A program made the translations under genes and the position numbers. The notes beneath the pieces were generated by a model. That model did not search any database. It was given only the letters and a program-made list of their open reading frames with translations, and was not told the DNA's origin. A DNA stretch of 32,261 nucleotides from a virus. The DNA is taken from the IMG/VR virus record IMGVR_UViG_3300020185_000160, positions 1 to 32,261 of that record. The stretch is one strand, 5' to 3'. Shown here piece by piece: positions 16,611 to 31,747 of this stretch (position 1 is its first letter; each line of letters begins with the position of its first letter).

Positions 16611-17709
16611 CTAAACTCTCCACCATTTGTATTCTCTCGCCAATCCAACGCATAACCGGAACAGCCATTGAGTTGCCCATAGCCTTGTATCGAGGCCCAT
16701 CTGGGCAATCTTCTGCTGGCTTATTGCGCCACGGTATCTGCGTGAAGTCGTCAGGGAAGCCTTGCAAGCGCTCACATTCGGTTGGGGTCAAGCGTCTGAC
16801 TTGTGTACCCTGCGAAATAGAATTTCTTGGCGCGCCTTGCGGTCCTCTTATTAACGGCCCCATAAGCTCTTTCGCTGCGTTCAAGTCGTGGTCAATCCCA
16901 AAAGCCACCGCTGGCGTCTTACTCTTGTCCAGCGTTGGCTTGACTTCCGTTGACACGCTGTCGCCTTGGTTGGCGCTGTTTTGCGCGCCGAAGGCTATTG
17001 GCAAGGTTTCTGTTGTCGGATCGTATGCGCTGCCAGTGCGTGTTGTAAGGCACTGAGCCACAATGGCTTCCGCCTCTACTCGCTGGTTTCCTGTGCGACT
17101 GAATGGAGCGCCTTGTGTAACTGTGGGGGCAGCTTCTTGCCCCGCTTCTCGGCTCGGCGCAGGATGCCCTGACAGGCTTTCGCGCTCAAAAAGAACCGCT
17201 GCGGCACGTCTCCAGTCTCCAAGGTATCCGACAACGAACACACGGCGGCGTCGCTGGGCCACTCCGAAGTATTGAGCGTCAAGCACTCTGTAGGCGAACC
17301 CATACCCGAGCTGGCCCAGCGCCCCGAGGAAGGTTCCAAAATCCCGTCCTCGTTGGCTAGACAAGACACCGGGGACGTTCTCCCAAACCAGCCACTTGGG
17401 CTGATATTGTGCAGCAATGGCAAGATAGGTGAGCATGAGATTTCCCCTTGGGTCATCAAGTCCCTTGCGAAGTCCTGCGACTGAAAAACTTTGGCAGGGG
17501 GTTCCTCCGACCAAAAGGTCAATTGATCTGTCAATGGGCCACTCCTTAAATTGTGTCATGTCGCCAAGGTTAGGGACATCTGGGTAATGATGCGCCAGCA
17601 CGGCGCTTGGGAACTTTTCTATCTCGCTAAACCACTGCGGCTCCCATCCAAGTGGATGCCACGCGGCAGTGGCGGCTTCAACGCCAGAGCAAACTGAGCC
17701 GTATTTCAT
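16603..17709 (-). CDS. DNA (cytosine-5) methyltransferase
   Basis: 368 residues. It carries the C5-methyltransferase motifs in order: motif I CSGVEAATAAW (from Cys7), motif IV GGTPCQSFS with catalytic Cys72, motif VI ENV at 110-112, motif VIII AQRRRRVFVVGY near 151-162, a variable target-recognition stretch of about 160 residues, and motif X YKAMGNSMAVPV near the end. All key residues are present, so it should be active. No cognate restriction enzyme is adjacent, so protection against host restriction or regulation is likelier than a phage restriction system. It overlaps the upstream gene by 4 bp. Confidence 0.93.
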   Translation of the reverse strand: MKYGSVCSGVEAATAAWHPLGWEPQWFSEIEKFPSAVLAHHYPDVPNLGDMTQFKEWPIDRSIDLLVGGTPCQSFSVAGLRKGLDDPRGNLMLTYLAIAAQYQPKWLVWENVPGVLSSQRGRDFGTFLGALGQLGYGFAYRVLDAQYFGVAQRRRRVFVVGYLGDWRRAAAVLFERESLSGHPAPSREAGQEAAPTVTQGAPFSRTGNQRVEAEAIVAQCLTTRTGSAYDPTTETLPIAFGAQNSANQGDSVSTEVKPTLDKSKTPAVAFGIDHDLNAAKELMGPLIRGPQGAPRNSISQGTQVRRLTPTECERLQGFPDDFTQIPWRNKPAEDCPDGPRYKAMGNSMAVPVMRWIGERIQMVESLDD

Positions 17710-18476
17710 GTGTCACCCTCATCAAAACAGTTATTCAACGGCTGAATAGGTTGCTTGCTAAACACCCATCGCCACTGCCGCTTGGTGTAGCCCGGAACCT
17801 CAACAAAATCACGCACACGATAAACCTTGTTCGCCTGCCACATTTTCTTGAGGTAGCTTGACGTTCGAGGAACGCTGTCACCCAGCAGCTCAGCCGCCTC
17901 TGCTGCCGTCACGCGCTGGTCATACGGTATTAGCGAAAACAGGCGATTGCCTTGGTCAATGCTGTGCTGTTTGCTGGCATCGGCTGCGCGCTGCATAGAT
18001 GGGGCCATAGTTGTCGGCCTTCGAGGGCCAGTTGGCAGGGCCTCACGTTTGTGCTGGCGATACATGAGCGTTTCAAACTCCCACAGGCAGTGGCCGTATG
18101 TGATCTCAAAGCGCTCGTGCTTATCGGTCACGCCCTCCAGCTTGGCCCTCAACCGTTCTGCTGCATCTTTTTCATATCGCGCTTTAGCAGATCGAGAAGC
18201 GCTTGCTGCTCTTCCAGCCGCTGCTTCAAGTTTGGCCGCATCGCTGTCTTCTGCTCCGTCAGCATTATGCTGTTGTTGCGCTCTAGCCTTTTTATAATAA
18301 TCTGAGTTTGGTCCGTACTCACGTTTTTTCCTTTCAAGTTTTATGTTTGCTGCCGAGCATATGCGGGCAATTGTTGACGGTGATACGCGCAGCAATTCAG
18401 CCGTCTCAATCTGTGACATGCCTTGCTGAGCGCAGTCAAGAACGTGGCGGGTGAGCGCATCTGGATCGTATTTCAT
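17706..18476 (-). CDS. HTH DNA-binding protein
   Basis: 256 residues, start overlapping the upstream stop (ATGA). Residues about 15-45 form a helix-turn-helix (GMSQIETAELLRVSPSTIARICSAANI). A charged coiled section covers about 55-115, and a second winged-helix-like element lies near 195-235 (TAAEAAELLGDSVPRTSSYLKKMWQANKVYRV). Two DNA-binding modules joined by a helical linker suggest a transcription regulator or replication-associated DNA binder. It is coupled to the methyltransferase and the PAPS-reductase-like gene. No known family is recognised. Confidence 0.65.
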   Translation of the reverse strand: MKYDPDALTRHVLDCAQQGMSQIETAELLRVSPSTIARICSAANIKLERKKREYGPNSDYYKKARAQQQHNADGAEDSDAAKLEAAAGRAASASRSAKARYEKDAAERLRAKLEGVTDKHERFEITYGHCLWEFETLMYRQHKREALPTGPRRPTTMAPSMQRAADASKQHSIDQGNRLFSLIPYDQRVTAAEAAELLGDSVPRTSSYLKKMWQANKVYRVRDFVEVPGYTKRQWRWVFSKQPIQPLNNCFDEGDT

Positions 18477-19207
18477 TCGTCTTCCTCGCAAAATAAGCCA
18501 CAGTCGGGCATAGTTTTCAGTGGGCGACCCTTCGCCTTGGGGTCAAGTTCATCAAGAAAGATGCGCTCGTTCTTTACGCGCACAAGCCTTGCTCCAAGTC
18601 TGCGTGATTGCTCTGCGCGCTGGTCAAAAACTTCTGGAAACTCGCGGCGTACCAAGTTCCAATATGTCGGGCTGGTCGCCTTTACACAGCCAATGCAGTT
18701 AGCGTTTGGAAACCCGCGCCCGTAAATTTCAGGCAACTTTATGCCAGCGGCGCGGATCATGTCGGCGCAATCATTCTTTGTCATGTTGGCGTCAATCAGG
18801 ATCGGCAATACATTGTCGCGCTCAGTCATAACGAACCTGTCATGCCTGTTGCGCTCATCAACAGTAAAGCCAAGGACATGCCAATCAACTGGATGGCTCT
18901 CCTCCCACTCTTGGCGAGCGCGCTTTTTAAGCTCAACCGTACATGGTGCGCCGTGTGGGAAAGCCATGCCCTTGCGGCGGTCAAATACGTCAACCACAGA
19001 TGCCAATGGATATTTTGAATTGACTGCGTATTGAATATCAATGCCAACCCATTTGGCTACATCTTCAGCAAAACGCTTATTATCGTGATGCTCCTCAATG
19101 ACAGGATTGTTGACAGCGTAAACATTGTCAGCGCCATACTTGTCAACGGTTAGCTTGAGTGCCGCCGCGCTGGCCGCGCCGCAAGAAAACCAGACTGCAA
19201 TTTTCAT
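18473..19207 (-). CDS. PAPS-reductase-like (adenine nucleotide alpha-hydrolase fold) protein
   Basis: 244 residues; start overlaps the zinc-knuckle gene stop (ATGA). The N-terminal loop WFSCGAASAA (residues 6-15) is the PP-loop of the PAPS reductase/ATP-sulfurylase-like superfamily. Further family-like segments are GAPCTVELKK and GRGFPNANCIGCVKA, the latter giving a Cys pair. Members adenylate a substrate; phage versions are of unknown function and some relatives (DndC) take part in DNA phosphorothioation. The dndB/D/E partners are absent, so DNA sulfur modification is only one option; tRNA or base modification is another. Confidence 0.75.
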   Translation of the reverse strand: MKIAVWFSCGAASAAALKLTVDKYGADNVYAVNNPVIEEHHDNKRFAEDVAKWVGIDIQYAVNSKYPLASVVDVFDRRKGMAFPHGAPCTVELKKRARQEWEESHPVDWHVLGFTVDERNRHDRFVMTERDNVLPILIDANMTKNDCADMIRAAGIKLPEIYGRGFPNANCIGCVKATSPTYWNLVRREFPEVFDQRAEQSRRLGARLVRVKNERIFLDELDPKAKGRPLKTMPDCGLFCEEDE

Positions 19208-19382: not shown

Positions 19383-21290
19383 TTATACGTTTTTGCATTT
19401 GCCTTCGTTGTCAGTGAACCAAACATGGCCATCGTTTATAACCATGTGGCCAGCGCCAATAAGCGCGTCTACAGCTTGCTTGTATGTGGAGCGCGGATTT
19501 GCGGCTGAGGACACCTTGCCTATGAAGTGGTCTTTCAACGTCTCTTCAGAGATAACCCAATATGTTCTCGGCTCTGGCCACCCAACCCCTCCGGGGTTTG
19601 GTTGCCCGACACCCTCACCGCGCAGCTGTGTAAACACCTTGCGGATCAAGACTTGGTTCTTGCCCTTGATGCGTGGCTTGTTGGCCTCTTCAATCTCGCT
19701 TTCAGTGGCCTGCACAACAGTACAAGTCGTAACGCTGTCACCATCCTCATCAACGCCAAGCTCGATGACGTTTAACTTAAACTGAAATATAACGCCCGTT
19801 TCCATGTCACGCTGTTTCGTGGCTTTTGCCGTGCGCAGGCCAGTGTTCTCATCGTAATCAAGCTCAATCTCTGTATCGGTCGCAGCGCGTAGACTTGAGT
19901 GGCCACGCGCGCCAGCGGCTTTATCCTTGCCGGAGTGGTGAACAACGTCCAAGTGTGCGCTTGTAATCTCGCGCAGCTTATCGCAGTTGCCGATAAACTT
20001 TGTCATATCCTCTGGCGAGTTTTCATTGCCGCCAGCCATTGAGCGGCTGAGCGTGTCAACAAATATGCACTTCACCTGACCGTGCTTCTTTGACACCTCG
20101 CGACACAGCTTCTCAAGCACAGCCATGTCAACTTCGCCGTCAAGCAAGTTGACCGGGGCAGGGCGCACAGCCAGCTTCACATCCTTATGCTCTGGATACT
20201 TTTTCCTTAGCGCAACAACGCGATTGTGGAACGCCATGCCGCCCTCGGTCGCGAGGTATAAAACGGAACCGCCAATAACCTTGTGGCCATTCCACTCCTC
20301 ACCGCAGGCAATGTGCCATGCAAGGTCAAGCGCAAAGAATGACTTGCCCACGTTTGACGGGCCATAGATCACAGACATCTGGCCCTCGCCAAGCCAGCCC
20401 TTCACAAGATAGTTGCGACTAAGCTGGGGAATGGCCTCATCCGGCATGAAGATTTGATCCATGACGCTCTGCACGGTCAATGCTTTCTTCGCCGCTGCCG
20501 GACCTTGGTTTACCCATACGTCAGAATAATCCCAGCCCTCCATGTCGGGCAGGATGTATTCAACGCCCAGCTCAGAGAAAGCGCGCTCGCACTCTTTGCG
20601 CCCGGCATCGTCATTGTCGCCTGCAATGACAAGCTCGGCATCTGGCTTGGCTTGTTGCAGGTTGTCAATCACAGCCAAAATGTTCCCTGCATTTAGAGCA
20701 AACACGCATGGCTTGCCCGTGGCCTCATGCACAGTCGCGGCTGTTGCCCAGCCCTCTGCAACATATGCAAACTCACGAATGGGTCCGCCAATCACGCTAA
20801 AGTTGCCAATCACGGGAAGCTGGTAGGAAAACTTTTTCTTTCCGTCAGCATCAATGAACTGCGCGCCAACGCGCCTGCCCTTCACGTCAATGATCGGGAT
20901 GGTTAGCGTGTCGCCGTCAATCTTGGCGTTGTGCAGTTTAATCTTTTTCTTCTCAAGGTATGGGTGACTGCTCATGGGGTCACGCTCCGGCCATTCAATA
21001 TCAACTCTCGTTACCTCCACTGTCGGCGTATGCCCCGGCTGGGGCCAGAGAGACATATCGCGCAGCCTGTCCTTGATGGCCTTATAGTCATTGCACTTGC
21101 GGCAATGAACCATGACCTCGCCTTGAAACTCTTTAATCCAAAACCGATCCGTGCCAGCGCAGGATGGGCATGGGCCATGATACTCGCCCTGCGCAGTCTT
21201 TTTCAACTCAAGACTGCGAATGATCGTGTTGCCAAACTCCGACCAGCGAGCGGCTGGAAACTTGCTTTCGCGGCTAAGATCGGCTACCAT
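19383..21290 (-). CDS. primase-helicase (Zn ribbon, Toprim, RecA-like ATPase)
   Basis: 635 residues from the ATG at 21290, chosen because TTGGAG precedes it. Zinc ribbon: Cys41, Cys44, Cys63, Cys66. Toprim: Glu180 in VAEGWATA, and Asp-Asn-Asp in AGDNDDAGR (225-227). RecA/RepA-like ATPase: Walker A GPSNVGKS at 310-317, Walker B CIFVDTLSRS, then DVVHHSGKD and GHSSLRAATD. The order matches phage bifunctional primase-helicases, which unwind DNA at the fork and lay primers. The C-terminal 120 residues look like a winged helix. No phage polymerase is present, so it likely recruits the host's. Confidence 0.9.
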   Translation of the reverse strand: MVADLSRESKFPAARWSEFGNTIIRSLELKKTAQGEYHGPCPSCAGTDRFWIKEFQGEVMVHCRKCNDYKAIKDRLRDMSLWPQPGHTPTVEVTRVDIEWPERDPMSSHPYLEKKKIKLHNAKIDGDTLTIPIIDVKGRRVGAQFIDADGKKKFSYQLPVIGNFSVIGGPIREFAYVAEGWATAATVHEATGKPCVFALNAGNILAVIDNLQQAKPDAELVIAGDNDDAGRKECERAFSELGVEYILPDMEGWDYSDVWVNQGPAAAKKALTVQSVMDQIFMPDEAIPQLSRNYLVKGWLGEGQMSVIYGPSNVGKSFFALDLAWHIACGEEWNGHKVIGGSVLYLATEGGMAFHNRVVALRKKYPEHKDVKLAVRPAPVNLLDGEVDMAVLEKLCREVSKKHGQVKCIFVDTLSRSMAGGNENSPEDMTKFIGNCDKLREITSAHLDVVHHSGKDKAAGARGHSSLRAATDTEIELDYDENTGLRTAKATKQRDMETGVIFQFKLNVIELGVDEDGDSVTTCTVVQATESEIEEANKPRIKGKNQVLIRKVFTQLRGEGVGQPNPGGVGWPEPRTYWVISEETLKDHFIGKVSSAANPRSTYKQAVDALIGAGHMVINDGHVWFTDNEGKCKNV

Positions 21291-21330
21291 TTTATTATAC
21301 TCCAAGCAGGGGGGTGTTCGTGTATCTATT

Positions 21331-21367
21331 GTATAGCCCGACACTTTTGTGCCGGGCTATACTTTTT
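21331..21367 (+). terminator. strong hairpin with U-run on the plus strand
   Basis: Arms 21331-21344 and 21349-21362 pair over 14 positions (one G-U), loop TTTT, then TTTTT on the plus strand. By shape it is an excellent rho-independent terminator for plus-strand RNA, yet flanking genes run on the minus strand, where no U-run follows. It could block antisense transcription or act as an RNA-processing hairpin between the SSB and primase-helicase genes. Confidence 0.7.
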
Positions 21368-24512: not shown

Positions 24513-24770
24513 TCACTTGCGAGCCTTCGCGGCAGCTCGCGCAATTACATCGTCAGCGGCTTGCGCTGCGCGCTCATCTTTGCGCATGTCAGCCTCAAGC
24601 ATGACGTTTAAAACACCCTCACAAATATCAACGCGGGTCTCATGGCCAAGCCCAAACGCCTCAAACATCGTGCATATGACAGAGCCTAAATGGCCGTTCT
24701 TCATTTTGTCAGGCAAGGCCATCAAAAAATCTTGCGTGGCTTGCGAAATTTGCTCCTCACGTTCAGTCAT
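24513..24770 (-). CDS. small helical hypothetical protein
   Basis: 85 residues, start overlapping the upstream stop by 4 bp. Charged, helical and Ala-rich at the C-terminus (ADMRKDERAAQAADDVIARAAAKARK). The middle GHLGSVICTMFEAFGLGHETRVDICEGVLNVML is more hydrophobic and may form a small core or dimer. No family recognised. Confidence 0.65.
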   Translation of the reverse strand: MTEREEQISQATQDFLMALPDKMKNGHLGSVICTMFEAFGLGHETRVDICEGVLNVMLEADMRKDERAAQAADDVIARAAAKARK

Positions 24771-25045
24771 AACCCTTGCTCCTCTTTCTCCAGAACAATG
24801 CTGATAATTGAGCGGTGGATGCCTGTGTCGCCATTCAGGTCAAGCCCATCCCTCACAAGCGCTGCGTGTATCTTGCGCCGGGCAGAAACAGATGCACGGC
24901 TCAATCGCGTGTTCTGCGGGTGTGACCAGTCCCAGAACTGAGCCACACCCATATAATCCGGCGAGCCAATAAACTCGCGGTCAATCTCTGTGATCCTGCA
25001 CAAAGCATTGAACGTAACGTCGGGCAATCCTACCTTAATGCTCAT
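24767..25045 (-). CDS. hypothetical protein
   Basis: 92 residues from the ATG at 25045, which overlaps the upstream gene end by 11 bp; the frame stays open far upstream but only inside that gene. Segments include DVTFNALCRITEIDREFIG and RASVSARRKIHAALVRDGLDLNG. No recognised domain. Overlaps on both sides indicate coupled translation in the early operon. Confidence 0.65.
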   Translation of the reverse strand: MSIKVGLPDVTFNALCRITEIDREFIGSPDYMGVAQFWDWSHPQNTRLSRASVSARRKIHAALVRDGLDLNGDTGIHRSIISIVLEKEEQGL

Positions 25046-25511
25046 CGACTTCGCCCTCCCATACAATGCCATGCTCGGCAAAGCGTTCCATTTGGTATTT
25101 GTTTGGCTTGGTATGCAGAAGGCCAGTGATGCGCGGATATATGCCGCCAAAATCCTTGGCTTGGCCGTAAGACAAGCGCGGTCCATCGCCAGCATCTCCG
25201 CGCAGAGCCTCAGCAAGCGCAAGCGACTTCTTGCCAATGTCGCGCTTGTCTTCGTTTTCAGATGTGTTCCAGCTGTATTCTTCGCACAAGAAGTCAGCTG
25301 CGCGGCAGAATTCAATCACGTCGCTGTAGCAAAAGTCCATCAAATAGTTAACGTCTTCAGATATGGACATGCTGGCCCAGCGCAATTCGTTTAGCGCCTC
25401 ACGCTCATCATCTGCAAATTCAGCAACAATGTCTGCGCGGTCAAGCATTTCTTGCTTGATACGCTCCCAGCGTGCAATGTCTTTTGCGGATGGTTTGGTT
25501 TCGTTTGTCAT
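25035..25511 (-). CDS. hypothetical acidic early protein
   Basis: 158 residues from the ATG at 25511 with GGAG seven bases upstream. The open frame extends further up but across the predicted promoter and leader. Acidic and helical (IVAEFADDEREALNELRWASMSISEDVNYLMDF), with Cys residues in a Tyr/Phe-rich section. First gene of the minus operon behind the 18-bp leader, so likely expressed early. A five-codon reading frame in the leader overlaps this start, which could tune translation. Function unknown. Confidence 0.7.
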   Translation of the reverse strand: MTNETKPSAKDIARWERIKQEMLDRADIVAEFADDEREALNELRWASMSISEDVNYLMDFCYSDVIEFCRAADFLCEEYSWNTSENEDKRDIGKKSLALAEALRGDAGDGPRLSYGQAKDFGGIYPRITGLLHTKPNKYQMERFAEHGIVWEGEVDEH

Positions 25512-25642: not shown

Positions 25643-25807
25643 ATGTCGGATAAGAAGCGCTTAATCAATTTCGCAGAAGAATATGACCGCATAATCACAG
25701 AAGCCGCGCGCAGGTCAGGGCTATCCTTTAGCGCGTTCTGCCGGAGCGCAGCACTAGAAAAAGCCGCAACAATTGTGGAGCATGTACAGCAGCCGAGGGC
25801 TGATTGA
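25643..25807 (+). CDS. ribbon-helix-helix DNA-binding protein
   Basis: 54 residues with AGAGGAG upstream. KKRLINFAEEYDRIITEAAR is a strand followed by helix A, and RSGLSFSAFCRSAALEKAA is the turn and helix B of an Arc/CopG-type ribbon-helix-helix fold. Such proteins bind DNA as dimers at short repeated sites and act as repressors. It is the first gene after the divergent promoter region and 490 bp before the iteron cluster at 26294-26450, a possible target. Stop overlaps the next start (TGATG). Confidence 0.7.
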   Translation: MSDKKRLINFAEEYDRIITEAARRSGLSFSAFCRSAALEKAATIVEHVQQPRAD

Positions 25808-26277
25808 TGCTTATCTACGGATGCGATCCGGGCTTCACCGGGGCCGTGGCGTTATATTGGACCGATACAGGCAAGCTGGAAGTGCATGACATGCCTACGG
25901 TCAAAAACACCAAAGGCAAAACGGTCATAAACTGCCCGGCATTGCTGGACGTTCTACAGAACGAAAGCGGCGAGCGCTGCCTTGCCGTCATCGAGCAAGT
26001 GGCCGCAATGCGTGGGCAAGGCGTGTCCAGCATGTTTCGCTTTGGCGAGGGATATGGAATGCTGCAAATGGGATGCGCTGCAAACAAGCTGCCCGTGCAA
26101 TTCGTAACGCCTGCAAAATGGAAAGGCCACTTCGGGCTGAGCCGGGACAAAGGCGTGTCGCGCGGTCTCGCAATGCAGCGCTTTCCAGATAACGCCAGCG
26201 ATTTTGGCCGGGCGAAAGACGATGGAAGGGCTGAAGCGGCCTTGCTTTGCCTTTACGCGGCAGAAAATATGGTTTGA
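25807..26277 (+). CDS. RuvC-like Holliday-junction resolvase
   Basis: 156 residues from the ATG at 25807. Catalytic acidic residues follow the RuvC pattern: Asp7 in GCDPGFTGAVAL, Glu63 in VIEQVAAMRGQG, and Asp138/139 with Glu143 in KDDGRAEAALLCLY. The segment FVTPAKWKGHFG is also family-typical. It would cut four-way junctions to debranch DNA before packaging. Its neighbour codes for the ribbon-helix-helix protein, and the iteron region follows. Confidence 0.85.
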   Translation: MLIYGCDPGFTGAVALYWTDTGKLEVHDMPTVKNTKGKTVINCPALLDVLQNESGERCLAVIEQVAAMRGQGVSSMFRFGEGYGMLQMGCAANKLPVQFVTPAKWKGHFGLSRDKGVSRGLAMQRFPDNASDFGRAKDDGRAEAALLCLYAAENMV

Positions 26278-26293
26278 GCGGTTTGAGGTGGGT

Positions 26294-26450
26294 GTATTAA
26301 ATGTGTATTAATTGTGGAGCCATATAAACAAGGGGTTTAGCGGTGTGTTTAGTACAATTAATACAAATTAATACAGTAATTCATACAATGGGCGTATTTT
26401 GTATGAATGTATGAATGTGTCTGAAAGACACATTAATAATACATTCATAC
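26294..26450. repeat. iteron cluster GTATNAAT(T/G), eight copies
   Basis: Copies on plus: 26294, 26305, 26401, 26409. On minus: 26356-26364, 26366-26374, 26378-26386, 26442-26450. Two subtypes: GTATTAAT on the left and GTATGAAT on the right. Spacing is 8-12 bp within groups. The 197-bp gap has no gene. It could be a replication origin or operator array. Confidence 0.8.
26401..26450. other. long hairpin inside the iteron region
   Basis: 12 bp (26401-26412 with 26439-26450) plus 9 bp (26414-26422 with 26426-26434), loop GAA, and a small asymmetric bulge. The arms contain three iteron copies. It could extrude as a cruciform or form a structured leader upstream of the 26475 gene. Confidence 0.75.
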
Positions 26451-26474
26451 ACCGTGGAACGTGAGGTTTAATAT

Positions 26475-26747
26475 ATGGCATATGATTGGGCTAAGTGGGT
26501 TAAGCATAAGATTGAGAAGGGCGAGGCGATTGTCCGTCCTGTAGGCTATCATAAAGGGGTCGAGCGGCTGCAGGGGTTTAGATCAAGGCTTGACGCTTGC
26601 CGGGATTTAGCAGAGCTAGAGGGCTTCGCCAATCGGCGCAGGTTTGATCCAACATTGCCGCGATGGAACGCAACCGAGCGAGATGCAATCCTGCGGCGCA
26701 AGTTTGAGATGGAGAATGGTGGGGATGAACGACGCAAGAAAAAATGA
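26475..26747 (+). CDS. hypothetical basic protein
   Basis: 90 residues. Start follows GTGAGGTTTAATAT. Basic, with Trp and Tyr near the N-terminus (MAYDWAKWVKHKIEKGE) and KGVERLQGFRSRLDACRDLAEL, ending in KKK. No recognised family. It is the first gene after the iteron/hairpin region. Its end overlaps the next gene by about 23 bp. Confidence 0.65.
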   Translation: MAYDWAKWVKHKIEKGEAIVRPVGYHKGVERLQGFRSRLDACRDLAELEGFANRRRFDPTLPRWNATERDAILRRKFEMENGGDERRKKK

Positions 26748-27068: not shown

Positions 27069-27098
27069 TTGCGCTTTGGGCTTGTGTGTGGCTATAAA
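27069..27098 (+). promoter_or_regulatory. possible promoter before a structured RNA
   Basis: -35-like TTGCGC (27069-27074), 18-bp spacer, -10 TATAAA (27093-27098). The expected start near 27105 coincides with the first base of a GC-rich hairpin. The -35 is weak. Confidence 0.4.
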
Positions 27099-27105
27099 TG
27101 CGCAC

Positions 27106-27173
27106 GGCGCGTCGTTCCTCCCAAGGACGCGCCTAAACTGGCCCGGCGCTTGTCCCAATCCATGCGCCGGGCA
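27106..27173 (+). ncRNA. two tandem GC-rich hairpins, leader or small RNA candidate
   Basis: Stem 1: GGCGCGTC (27106-27113) with GACGCGCC (27127-27134). Stem 2: GCCCGGCGC (27142-27150) with GCGCCGGGC (27165-27173). Both loops contain TCCCAA, and loop 1 has CCTCCC, which resembles an anti-Shine-Dalgarno sequence. The frame through here is open but lacks a good start. It leads into the 27192 gene and a terminator at 27392. Confidence 0.5.
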
Positions 27174-27191
27174 TATTTGAGGGCTGGGCCT

Positions 27192-27392
27192 ATGTCATTC
27201 CAGATTGATTTTCGTATGATGCTCAATTGCGAGGATACAGAGACGCAAGAGATTGTGACGGGTGAGCTGATTGACCACGTTGAGGAGCAACTATCTGCCG
27301 GCGTGCCTGTGGAGCGGGTGCTGCAAGGGCTTGCTGAGGTCATTCTTGAAATGCACGAAATGATTAATCCGGAGGGTGAGACTGTGCATTAA
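27192..27392 (+). CDS. small helical hypothetical protein
   Basis: 66 residues from ATG at 27192, with GAGGGC upstream. A longer reading from TTG at 27069 would cross the hairpins and is less likely; an ATG at 27162 is inside stem 2. Acidic and helical (GELIDHVEEQLSAGVPVERVLQGLAEVILEMHEMINPEGE). Unknown family. Ends directly at the bidirectional terminator. Confidence 0.6.
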   Translation: MSFQIDFRMMLNCEDTETQEIVTGELIDHVEEQLSAGVPVERVLQGLAEVILEMHEMINPEGETVH

Positions 27393-27421
27393 AAAAGCCC
27401 GGCGCGATGGCCGGGCTTTTT
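27392..27421. terminator. bidirectional rho-independent terminator
   Basis: A 12-bp perfect inverted repeat: AAAAAGCCCGGC (27392-27403), loop GCGATG, GCCGGGCTTTTT (27410-27421). A-run and U-run flank the GC stem symmetrically, so it can stop the plus-strand genes ending at 27392 and the minus-strand genes ending at 27441. Confidence 0.92.
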
Positions 27422-27440
27422 GTTGCGTTGTGGGTGTGGC

Positions 27441-27623
27441 TTATTTTACGCAAGGCGACAGTGCGACGGGGAATGTCTCACCAATCTCAAGCATACAGTC
27501 AATGGCCGCAATCTTAGCCTCCTCTAATGTTGCAAAGCTAGACTTTAACAGGCTCTCATGGACGCGGCCAACAAAGCTATAGCGTCCAGATGGCGTTTTC
27601 ATAATTGTAGTAACCTTAAGCAT
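27441..27623 (-). CDS. small hypothetical protein
   Basis: 60 residues with AAAGGGAAAG upstream. The first half is beta-like (MLKVTTIMKTPSGRYSFVGRV), the middle is a helix (ATLEEAKIAAIDCMLE), similar to small DUF1508/YegP-like beta-alpha units, but the match is loose. Last gene of its minus operon before the terminator. Function unknown. Confidence 0.6.
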   Translation of the reverse strand: MLKVTTIMKTPSGRYSFVGRVHESLLKSSFATLEEAKIAAIDCMLEIGETFPVALSPCVK

Positions 27624-27634
27624 TCGCTTTCCCT

Positions 27635-27751
27635 TTACAGATTGAGCGCTAATACAGCGCCGATGATAATCCCGGCGGCAATGCCAAGGCTAACTTGAGT
27701 TAAGATTGCCTTGACTTGTTGGCGGATTTGTTTTGTTTGGCGACGCGTCAT
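27635..27751 (-). CDS. 38-residue single-TM peptide
   Basis: ATG overlaps the stop of the upstream gene (TAATG). A basic, Gln-rich head (MTRRQTKQIRQQVKAILTQ) precedes one membrane segment (about 20-38, VSLGIAAGIIIGAVLALNL). The charge pattern predicts the N-terminus in the cytoplasm. Eleven bases separate it from the next gene. A membrane-acting early peptide is plausible; nothing more can be said. Confidence 0.6.
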   Translation of the reverse strand: MTRRQTKQIRQQVKAILTQVSLGIAAGIIIGAVLALNL

Positions 27752-28074
27752 TATGCTGCCTCCTCTTCGCGCTCTTCAAATATCTCCCACAAGCGTGCGC
27801 AAATGCGTGCGTTGATTTCGCCATATGCCATGATGCAGGCAATTTCGTCATATGACTTGCCATGTTCATTGCCATAGCATTCAGAGAAGAAATCTTCGCC
27901 TTGCTCAATGTTGCAGTTTTGGCAAATGGTATGGGCTTTGGCGTAGTATATGACATACTCGGAGCCGTCCGCGCTTTCATGCGCCCAATCAATAGCCTGC
28001 TCAATGTCGCTGGCATCGCGTGCAATCTCTTCGGCAATGTCGTTGCAATACTGTGTGAGGTCATAATCTTGCAT
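27751..28074 (-). CDS. acidic early protein
   Basis: 107 residues from the ATG at 28074, preceded by the GGAG of the 18-bp leader. Strongly acidic (Asp/Glu at about a quarter of positions) with a Cys pair (CQNC) and an acidic tail EEREEEAA. EYVIYYAKAHTICQNC and ACIMAYGEINARICARL recur in small proteins of unknown function from phages and plasmids. Small acidic early proteins are sometimes DNA mimics that block host nucleases; this is speculation here. Confidence 0.65.
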   Translation of the reverse strand: MQDYDLTQYCNDIAEEIARDASDIEQAIDWAHESADGSEYVIYYAKAHTICQNCNIEQGEDFFSECYGNEHGKSYDEIACIMAYGEINARICARLWEIFEEREEEAA

Positions 28075-28081
28075 TGTCTTT

Positions 28082-28099
28082 CTCCATGTTTGTGTTGTG
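28082..28099 (-). repeat. 18-bp leader repeat, copy 2
   Basis: Minus-strand CACAACACAAACATGGAG upstream of the 28074 gene. Unlike copies 1 and 3 there is no clear -10 element before it, so the shared element probably works at the RNA level. Confidence 0.9.
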
Positions 28100-28119
28100 T
28101 CATGCGGCTGCATGTGAAG

Positions 28120-28139
28120 GCCGCGCCGTGAAGCGCGGC
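28120..28139. other. 7-bp GC hairpin between minus genes
   Basis: GCCGCGC (28120-28126) pairs with GCGCGGC (28133-28139), loop 6 nt, in the gap between the genes at 28152 and 28074. No U-run. Likely an RNA pause, processing or stability element. Confidence 0.55.
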
Positions 28140-28151
28140 TAACAGATGCGG

Positions 28152-28334
28152 TCAGTCAAACTCGGCTGCCATACAGCGCAGCTCTTCCTGATAGTCTTCC
28201 CAGCGCATATGCGCCCAATTGTGCTTGCCGTTTGCATCGAGCCATTTGGAGAGCCTATCAACCTGCTCTTCTGTAGCCAGCGCGAATTCAAACTCTTCGT
28301 TAAGGTAGTGGGATTTTACTTGCTCATATGTCAT
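28152..28334 (-). CDS. small hypothetical early protein
   Basis: 60 residues from ATG at 28334, using the leader's GGAG nine bases upstream. An in-frame ATG at 28349 lies inside the leader repeat and would consume the ribosome site. Sequence features: NEEFEFALATEEQVDRLSKWLDANGKHNWAHMRWEDYQEELRC, with three Trp and net acidic. No family recognised. First gene behind the promoter at 28367-28395. Confidence 0.65.
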   Translation of the reverse strand: MTYEQVKSHYLNEEFEFALATEEQVDRLSKWLDANGKHNWAHMRWEDYQEELRCMAAEFD

Positions 28335-28343
28335 TTTGTTTGT

Positions 28344-28361
28344 CTCCATGTTTGTGTTGTG
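28344..28361 (-). repeat. 18-bp leader repeat, copy 3
   Basis: Identical to copies at 25520 and 28082 and, like copy 1, placed right at the predicted transcription start. Supplies the GGAG ribosome site of the 28334 gene. Confidence 0.9.
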
Positions 28362-28366
28362 CAATC

Positions 28367-28395
28367 AGTATCAGATATTTTTTGCATATGCTCAA
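28367..28395 (-). promoter_or_regulatory. predicted sigma70-type promoter
   Basis: Minus-strand -35 TTGAGC (28390-28395), 17-bp spacer, -10 GATACT (28367-28372). The start should fall at about 28360, at the head of leader copy 3. The layout closely mirrors the promoter at 25543-25572. Confidence 0.65.
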
Positions 28396-28411
28396 TACAG
28401 ATAATGAGCAA

Positions 28412-28426
28412 GTGACGTAACGTCAC
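28412..28426. promoter_or_regulatory. perfect palindrome GTGACGT-A-ACGTCAC
   Basis: Two 7-bp arms around one base, about 17 bp upstream of the minus -35 element. Its size and position suit a dimeric regulator's operator. It lies in the 450-bp noncoding region 28335-28785. Confidence 0.5.
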
Positions 28427-31015: not shown

Positions 31016-31747
31016 ATGGGCATTTTTGATTTTTTAGGCGACTTATCTTCAAAGCGCAGTAAAGAGCTTGGCCTTGGCGGCATACAGTCTTTGCTTGGCA
31101 CGCGCCGCGCTGCACAAGCTGGCGCAATTGGCGATGAGATGATGGGAATTACAAACAAAGATAGTTTGCCCGGTTACTTTAATGAGCAGACGCGTGAGTA
31201 TGTTCCTTGGTACGTTGATTTGTTTGACGGCGGTGGATTGAATGCTGCTGGCAGTGTAGCGGAGCAAGAGGCTGCGCAGTCTATGGCTGCTAGCGTTACG
31301 CCCGGTAGTAGCCCCGGCGGCGCTCCTACGCAATCTCCCGGTTTGCTTGCAAATAATCAATTTTCTGACATGGAGCGTAGGCAAAGGTCAAACCCACTTG
31401 AGCCATTTGGCGGGTTTGGTCCTGCAATACAAGATACGCCAGACACGTCATATTACACGCCACCTTCGTCTATGCAGATGCCAACTCCCGCTGGTCCGGG
31501 TATGCCAAGTTATACGCCTCCTTCATCTATGCAGATGCCTACCCCAGCTTCAGCTGCAAGGCCTTTTACCCCTGCGCCTGAAAGCACGCCTCGTTTAAGC
31601 GAAATGCAAACGCCTATGATGCAGCACCCTGAGTTTCCACAGTTTGTTGATATTATGAAAAGAGCAGGCAACGAGTCTGTATTCCAAAACCCAGAGCAAG
31701 CTTCGTTTGTGTTTAATAGCTACCTAAAGCAAATAGGTTATAAGTAA
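31016..31747 (+). CDS. Pro/Met/Ser-rich putative virion protein
   Basis: 243 residues. N-terminus MGIFDFLGDLSSKRSKELG is amphipathic, with Gly/Ala stretches following. Residues 90-200 are Pro/Ser/Gly/Met-rich and likely disordered; YTPPSSMQMPTPA occurs twice (147-159, 166-178). The C-terminal 45 residues are helical (FPQFVDIMKRAGNESVFQNPEQASFVFNSYLKQIGYK). Lies between TerL and the adaptor, so a structural role is likely. No known family. Last base overlaps the adaptor start. Confidence 0.55.
   Translation: MGIFDFLGDLSSKRSKELGLGGIQSLLGTRRAAQAGAIGDEMMGITNKDSLPGYFNEQTREYVPWYVDLFDGGGLNAAGSVAEQEAAQSMAASVTPGSSPGGAPTQSPGLLANNQFSDMERRQRSNPLEPFGGFGPAIQDTPDTSYYTPPSSMQMPTPAGPGMPSYTPPSSMQMPTPASAARPFTPAPESTPRLSEMQTPMMQHPEFPQFVDIMKRAGNESVFQNPEQASFVFNSYLKQIGYK

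Follow-up and report, generated by a model that had tools for sequence, protein, structure and literature searches.

A repeat array behind the RuvC gene of a marine phage as a probable replication origin matched to the winged helix of its primase-helicase

The window, i.e. the whole stretch of DNA analysed here, comprises 32,261 bases and represents the complete IMG/VR record IMGVR_UViG_3300020185_000160. Its left side holds head genes. The leftward genes encode a C5 methyltransferase, an HTH protein, a PAPS reductase-like protein, a primase-helicase, a Gp2.5-like single-stranded DNA-binding/annealing protein and an exonuclease VIII-like protein, and the rightward genes a ribbon-helix-helix (RHH) protein, RuvC, a 90-residue ORF, a dATP/dGTP pyrophosphohydrolase domain and the two subunits of terminase. 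Among the window genes scanned, none was recognised as a DNA polymerase gene. Between the stop codon of RuvC at 26277 and the ATG of the 90-residue ORF at 26475 lies a non-coding gap of 197 bp that harbours no gene and has a GC content of 33.5%, compared with 51.1% for the contig, and a short repeated unit fills much of it. A DNA-level search of the 4-kb region against phage records returned just two short matches, both to a nucleotide-metabolism gene. The features of the locus are as follows:

19383-21293, minus strand: primase-helicase, about 636 amino acids from the ATG at 21293 (a longer ORF runs from a GTG at 21344)
19386-19691, minus strand: C-terminal winged-helix domain, 102 amino acids, proposed iteron-binding domain (AlphaFold2 mean pLDDT 90.3, pTM 0.83)
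19488-19514, minus strand: putative specificity patch SSAANPRST, perfectly associated with array type and top segment of a blind scan
25643-25807, plus strand: 54-residue ribbon-helix-helix-like protein (Pfam NikA-like, E 1.8e-6)
25804-26277, plus strand: RuvC-like Holliday junction resolvase, left flank (PHROG 1770, E 5.5e-35)
26278-26474, no strand: whole non-coding putative origin region, from RuvC to the 90-residue ORF, swapped as a cassette in relatives with flanks 97-99% alike
26293-26301, plus strand: unit 1, TGTATTAAA, TAAT type, one mismatch, ends in AAA
26304-26312, plus strand: unit 2, TGTATTAAT, TAAT type
26316-26353, no strand: spacer between the two inverted unit groups, CATATAAACAAGGGG, a motif that recurs in relatives; candidate unwinding element
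26357-26365, minus strand: unit 3, TGTATTAAT, TAAT type
26367-26375, minus strand: unit 4, TGTATTAAT, TAAT type
26379-26387, minus strand: unit 5, TGTATGAAT, GAAT type
26400-26408, plus strand: unit 6, TGTATGAAT, GAAT type
26400-26451, no strand: long imperfect hairpin built from units, seen by folding, with a GAA loop at 26423-26425; candidate single-strand initiation (priming) site
26408-26416, plus strand: unit 7, TGTATGAAT, GAAT type
26435-26443, minus strand: decayed ninth unit, TGTATTATT
26443-26451, minus strand: unit 8, TGTATGAAT, GAAT type
26475-26747, plus strand: 90-residue ORF, right flank, which matches no family

Several genes of the neighbourhood vary in their own right. RuvC (25804-26277) occurs in two alleles, with about 98% and about 69% identity to that of the window, amid neighbours that are otherwise near-identical and regardless of array type, which reflects either ordinary mosaic exchange or selection on the resolvase. 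Small genes at 24513-25315, 27069-28415 and 31016-31747 are replaced or strongly divergent among near-identical contigs and mark hypervariable cargo spots, and the HTH protein (17706-18491), which bears a weak similarity to a sigma-factor profile, is 86-94% identical in close relatives and about 47% identical in the 35.6-kb relative G006.

In a search of the whole record, TGTATNAA was found in eight exact copies inside the gap and in one copy elsewhere, and all seven exact copies of TGTATNAAT lie inside the gap. Short units that are clustered in non-coding DNA and almost absent from the rest of the replicon are a hallmark of iteron origins. For GTATNAAT, 0.16 copies are expected in the gap by chance, and the highest count among 5,000 Markov shuffles was 3; when any 8-mer with one free position was allowed, as a look-elsewhere test, the shuffles mostly contained 2-3 copies and exceeded the 8 observed in 1 out of 500. 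An earlier, sequence-only reading of this DNA had reported eight copies in both orientations within a 197-bp gap, which the exact count bears out, and its division of the array into a TAAT subtype on the left and a GAAT subtype on the right also holds, with four units each.

As single-stranded DNA, the gap is predicted to form two hairpins, and it folds far more strongly than shuffled sequences (z = -6.3). The same reading had described a 21-bp hairpin with a GAA loop; the hairpin and its loop are present, but the stem is not an uninterrupted 21 bp and instead comprises 22 bp (26400-26451) with one mismatch and a 3-nt bulge, and a second, larger inverted repeat (26293-26315 with 26354-26375) had escaped it. 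Beside the units, an A+T-rich gap and a recurrent spacer motif are seen at the sequence level: many relatives with other repeats have kept either ATATAAA(C/T)AAGGGG or the alternative CAATGG(G/C)TTA at the spacer site. The hairpin tip CCT(A/T)TA(A/G)G recurs in 78 of the 110 arrays collected (1.1 expected), and the tip in the window is a variant of it, CTGAAAG. A switch in GC skew had been suggested as a mark of an origin at this position, and the sign of the skew does change near the array, at about 25.5-26.5 kb; this lends weak support because the direction of transcription switches at the same place.

Relatives of the window's RuvC protein are encoded in 74 viral contigs, which makes it possible to compare what lies behind this gene. 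Where RuvC is 97-99% identical to that of the window, the gap behind it holds either the TGTAT(T/G)AAT array (T1) or an array of AATTATGAT/ATCATAATT units (T2), and ATTAGTATC units (T3) are found behind more distant RuvC proteins. T2 arrays share the spacer motif CATATAAA(C/T)AAGGGG, the inverted group and the hairpin; across the three types, one unit has taken the place of another at every site within a conserved layout. The exchange is sharply bounded: the window and contig L018 differ at about 5 positions per 60 nt in RuvC, at 37-39 in the cassette and again at fewer beyond it, and the 90-residue ORF is 93-99% identical in many T2 contigs, whose array is different. Repeats that are not conserved between conserved flanks had been named in the sequence-only reading as evidence against it, and this is literally what is found in L018 and L043. 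The swapped array is nonetheless the strongest evidence for an origin, since all repeats of an array switch jointly and their switch is matched by that of the recognition helix of a distant protein.

This partner emerged from the coding sequences. No gene whose presence or absence follows array type (T1/T2) was found in the fetched flanks. When 47 window genes were scanned residue by residue for columns that separate TGTATNAAT from AATTATGAT contigs, a sole contiguous, well-sampled run came to light, at residues 612-620 of the long primase-helicase ORF; where a gene is represented by just 2-3 sequences per side, such columns are uninformative. The patch lies 7 kb from the array and reads SSAANPRST in T1 and TTASNKSQV in T2. 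All 19 distinct contigs that hold both array and patch are concordant, with NPRS paired with TGTATNAA-type arrays, NKSQV with AATTATGAT and NPSSI with ATTAGTATC. At the DNA level, contig L085 and the window differ at 17 of the 27 nt of the patch, as many differences as in the surrounding 300 nt together, and the patch bin is the most divergent one of the entire gene. Simple linkage fails to explain the match, since 7 kb of DNA, including genes that show no such association, separates the array from the patch; metagenome contigs could be chimaeric, but many independent ones agree.

The primase-helicase joins a zinc ribbon, a Toprim domain, a RepA-type AAA_25 helicase and a C-terminal winged helix in one ORF, with Pfam matches to PF13481, PF13362 and PF08273 (AAA_25 E 5.5e-36; Toprim_3), and the sole PDB sequence match of the helicase domain is RSF1010 RepA (1g8y, E 3.9e-4). 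An AlphaFold2 model of the whole protein is of low confidence except in the helicase and at the C-terminus, and the C-terminal domain was therefore modelled alone. Its 102 residues are predicted to form a helix, a strand, two further helices and a two-strand wing, with the patch (residues 61-69 of the modelled domain) at the turn and N-terminus of the third, or recognition, helix. The third helix is the part with which winged helices usually read DNA. A Foldseek search of the domain against the PDB returned general winged helices (CRP-type, histone H1 and ORC), none below E 0.001, and no credible relative emerged when PDB sequences were searched with a profile.

Three further scans added about 150 contigs and extended the comparison to 110 unique helicase/array pairs. 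The primase-helicase gene is followed directly by the array in most relatives, and it is in the window's lineage that the array is found behind RuvC instead; the common layout consists of one or two units, a spacer, three or four inverted units, a gap and a hairpin of units. Given the rest of the protein, the distance between arrays correlates with the distance between helices (partial r 0.29; none of 999 permutations as high). A blind scan of 9-residue segments across the last 330 residues placed three segments that overlap the recognition helix at the top (0.34, 0.31 and 0.30; next 0.15). Among close pairs, those with different helices have array distances of at least 0.85 and those with the same helix of at most 0.78.

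Individual pairings point in the same direction. An NPRS helix goes together with GTATNAA in four divergent groups (the window, CRP-831, L197-L204 and L335), and other helix/unit pairs include NPDS/CTACAAA, NPSGAY/AATCGTA, NPHTP/GTGTAAA and KNGTW/ATGTGAA. On a tree built without the patch, seven independent pairs are concordant for NPR(S/A) with GTATNAA and none is opposite (p = 0.016); T1/T2 alone provide three switches, all concordant and too few for significance. The patch is not the whole code, because one NPRAA lineage has the unit GTAGAAA and not GTATNAA. No array was recognised in the fetched contigs of the group with an NPKTS helix (L147-L161, L057 and L058), where it perhaps lies outside the contigs or is too weakly repeated.

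The arrangement extends to named phages. Directly 3′ of the primase-helicase gene, arrays are found in the Roseobacter phages CRP-831/821 (TGTATAAA) and CRP-811/823 (ACTACAAA), of which CRP-831 and CRP-823 are in culture, as well as in Rhizobium phage RHph_N65 and Alteromonas phage XX1924. A position 3′ of the primase/helicase gene is shared by Roseobacter phage CRP-406, Salicola phage CGphi29, Idiomarinaceae phage 1N2-2 and two Methylobacterium plasmids. Rhizobium phage 16-3 (L344, record 56250 onward) carries 10-11 GCGTGACA units directly 3′ of p101, which we predict to be the origin of this classical phage. In 7 of the 17 annotated relatives sampled, mostly distant ones, no array was found 3′ of the gene. 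In the Methylobacterium plasmids (L348 and L355), RepA-type ATPase genes have directly behind them unit arrays whose hairpins are of the CCCTATAGGG or CCCTATGGGA type, and pMRAD08 may be a phage-plasmid because it contains a terminase gene. In a separate clade whose RuvC is about 63-67% identical (L054 10150-10459, L068 9400-9680, L071 9050-9330 and L072 9380-9640), hairpin-bearing arrays are built from AACTGTGGA, GGTGTGGA or GGTGAGGA units, apparently another set of origin types.

Overall, we consider it highly probable (roughly 0.88) that the array is an iteron origin recognised by the one-protein primase/RepA-type-helicase/winged-helix initiator of a marine phage. The origin already suspected in the sequence-only reading gains support from the co-variation with the recognition patch of the primase-helicase and from the position of the array directly 3′ of that gene in most relatives. 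Alternatively, the winged helix could bind the array mainly for transcriptional or copy-number control (autoregulation, handcuffing or a crr-like element). Co-variation by itself would also fit an operator read by the same winged-helix domain, as all of these data concern recognition and not initiation, and an array between genes could affect transcription of the downstream gene. However, such an array occurs only once in the window genome, it follows the helicase gene in most relatives rather than preceding its promoter, its spacer and hairpin modules are as in RSF1010-type origins, and the precedents with such a layout are origins (PMC7581432, PMC4234260); we therefore regard a main role in control as improbable.

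The operator array for the 54-residue RHH protein that the sequence-only reading had offered as its alternative fares worse and appears very unlikely. The protein is a plausible DNA binder encoded upstream of RuvC, 0.5 kb from the array, but it is 100% identical to that of the window in L018 and L043, whose arrays differ completely, and none of its residues tracks array type in the residue-level scan; the same protein with different array types excludes it as the reader of the array. Even less can be said for a structured RNA, terminator or attenuator in which the repeats would co-vary only through mutual pairing: it would suit the strong predicted folding (z = -6.3) and the hairpins kept in relatives, but pairing among the repeats gives no reason for a recognition helix at a distance of 7 kb to change along with them, nor for the change of units that lie outside the hairpin, and the orientation and spacing of the units fit protein sites. 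A packaging (pac/cos) or partition site, suggested by the distance of about 2.3 kb between the array and the gene for the small terminase subunit in the window, is just as hard to uphold, given that the array of most relatives directly follows the primase-helicase gene, away from terminase, and co-varies with the primase-helicase only.

An origin read by the primase-helicase can be compared with several known systems. SaPI Rep/ori and SCCmec Cch2/ori of staphylococcal mobile elements likewise combine an initiator helicase, a C-terminal domain and short iterons 3′ of the gene; the C-terminal domains of both proteins read iterons just downstream of their own genes, and binding has been shown for the isolated domain of Cch2 (PMC7581432). 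Their helicases are of the Cch/MCM-like type with separate primase or polymerase proteins, whereas the protein of these marine tailed phages fuses a RepA-type (AAA_25) helicase to a Toprim primase, and the putative origin of the window's lineage is kilobases away from the gene. RSF1010 (IncQ) shares the iterons, the RepA-type hexameric helicase and the hairpins, which serve priming in the plasmid; at its oriV, RepC acts on the iterons, followed by RepA and then by RepB′ at ssiA/ssiB (described in PMC4234260). RSF1010 divides these functions between three separate proteins, RepA, RepB′ and RepC, unlike the single polypeptide with a Toprim primase found here, which is thus not of the separate-protein IncQ kind. 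The helicase of the satellite phage P4 alpha protein belongs to superfamily 3 (SF3). Alpha, too, is a single protein with Toprim-type primase, helicase and winged-helix parts, the last of which binds the origin repeats (described in PMC4234260), but the iteron layout differs and the AAA_25/RepA-type helicase of the marine phages sets them apart from the P4 alpha type. The pRN1 protein ORF904 resembles the present case in its primase, helicase and winged-helix domains, the origin directly 3′ of its gene and a stem-loop, which is required there (PMC4234260). It differs in its archaeo-eukaryotic primase and SF3 helicase, and pRN1 has no iterons. Lambda O is not known to have a primase or a helicase domain. 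O is, similarly, a phage-encoded initiator that reads its own phage-specific iterons beside an A+T-rich tract (PMC7466680), but these lie inside the O gene and the protein is unrelated to the primase-helicase.

In the mechanism that we propose, the C-terminal winged helix of the primase-helicase would read the units as iterons, as suggested by the co-variation and the predicted structure, and the inverted unit groups would set several initiator copies around the short A+T-rich spacer. By analogy with RSF1010, P4 alpha, SaPI Rep and Cch2, the spacer would melt and the RepA-type helicase ring would be loaded there, and the long hairpin, once single-stranded, would probably be where the Toprim primase portion of this protein primes synthesis; a DNA polymerase would take over after priming. 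Replication would thereby start at the array, and the specificity of the predicted initiator, as judged by co-variation, is matched to the unit.

A self-contained initiator with iterons beside its gene is already known. What is new, as far as the searchable literature shows, is the domain combination in this phage group and the origin layout that recurs among its members, the fact that unit and patch switch as a pair between near-identical phages, and a separate predicted origin behind RuvC in the window's lineage. No description of the primase-helicase/array arrangement turned up in searches of open-licence PMC papers, and the words 'repeat', 'primase' and 'intergenic' are absent from the paper that describes the CRP phages.

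The findings provide a rule for finding origins in phages in which they are unmarked, namely to look directly 3′ of a RepA-type primase-helicase gene for a unit array and a hairpin tipped with CCT(A/T)TAGG. With over 100 recognition helices matched to their DNA units, many of them in near-identical proteins, a winged-helix recognition code becomes directly testable. Each phage seems to possess its own matched lock and key for replication, and the fact that near-identical phages have switched origin and initiator jointly raises the question of selection on origin specificity. It is conceivable, though we hold it to be rather doubtful, that origin specificities are exchangeable types under diversifying selection. 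Recombination would then exchange cassette and patch as a pair within an otherwise freely mixing genome, and this would keep co-infecting relatives, satellites and decoy origins in the host from exploiting or titrating one another's initiator. Interference among co-infecting phages, with satellites or with decoys would be one guess at why types switch, and its single precedent is the decoy experiment in lambda, where extra origin copies in the host block infection (PMC4488673).
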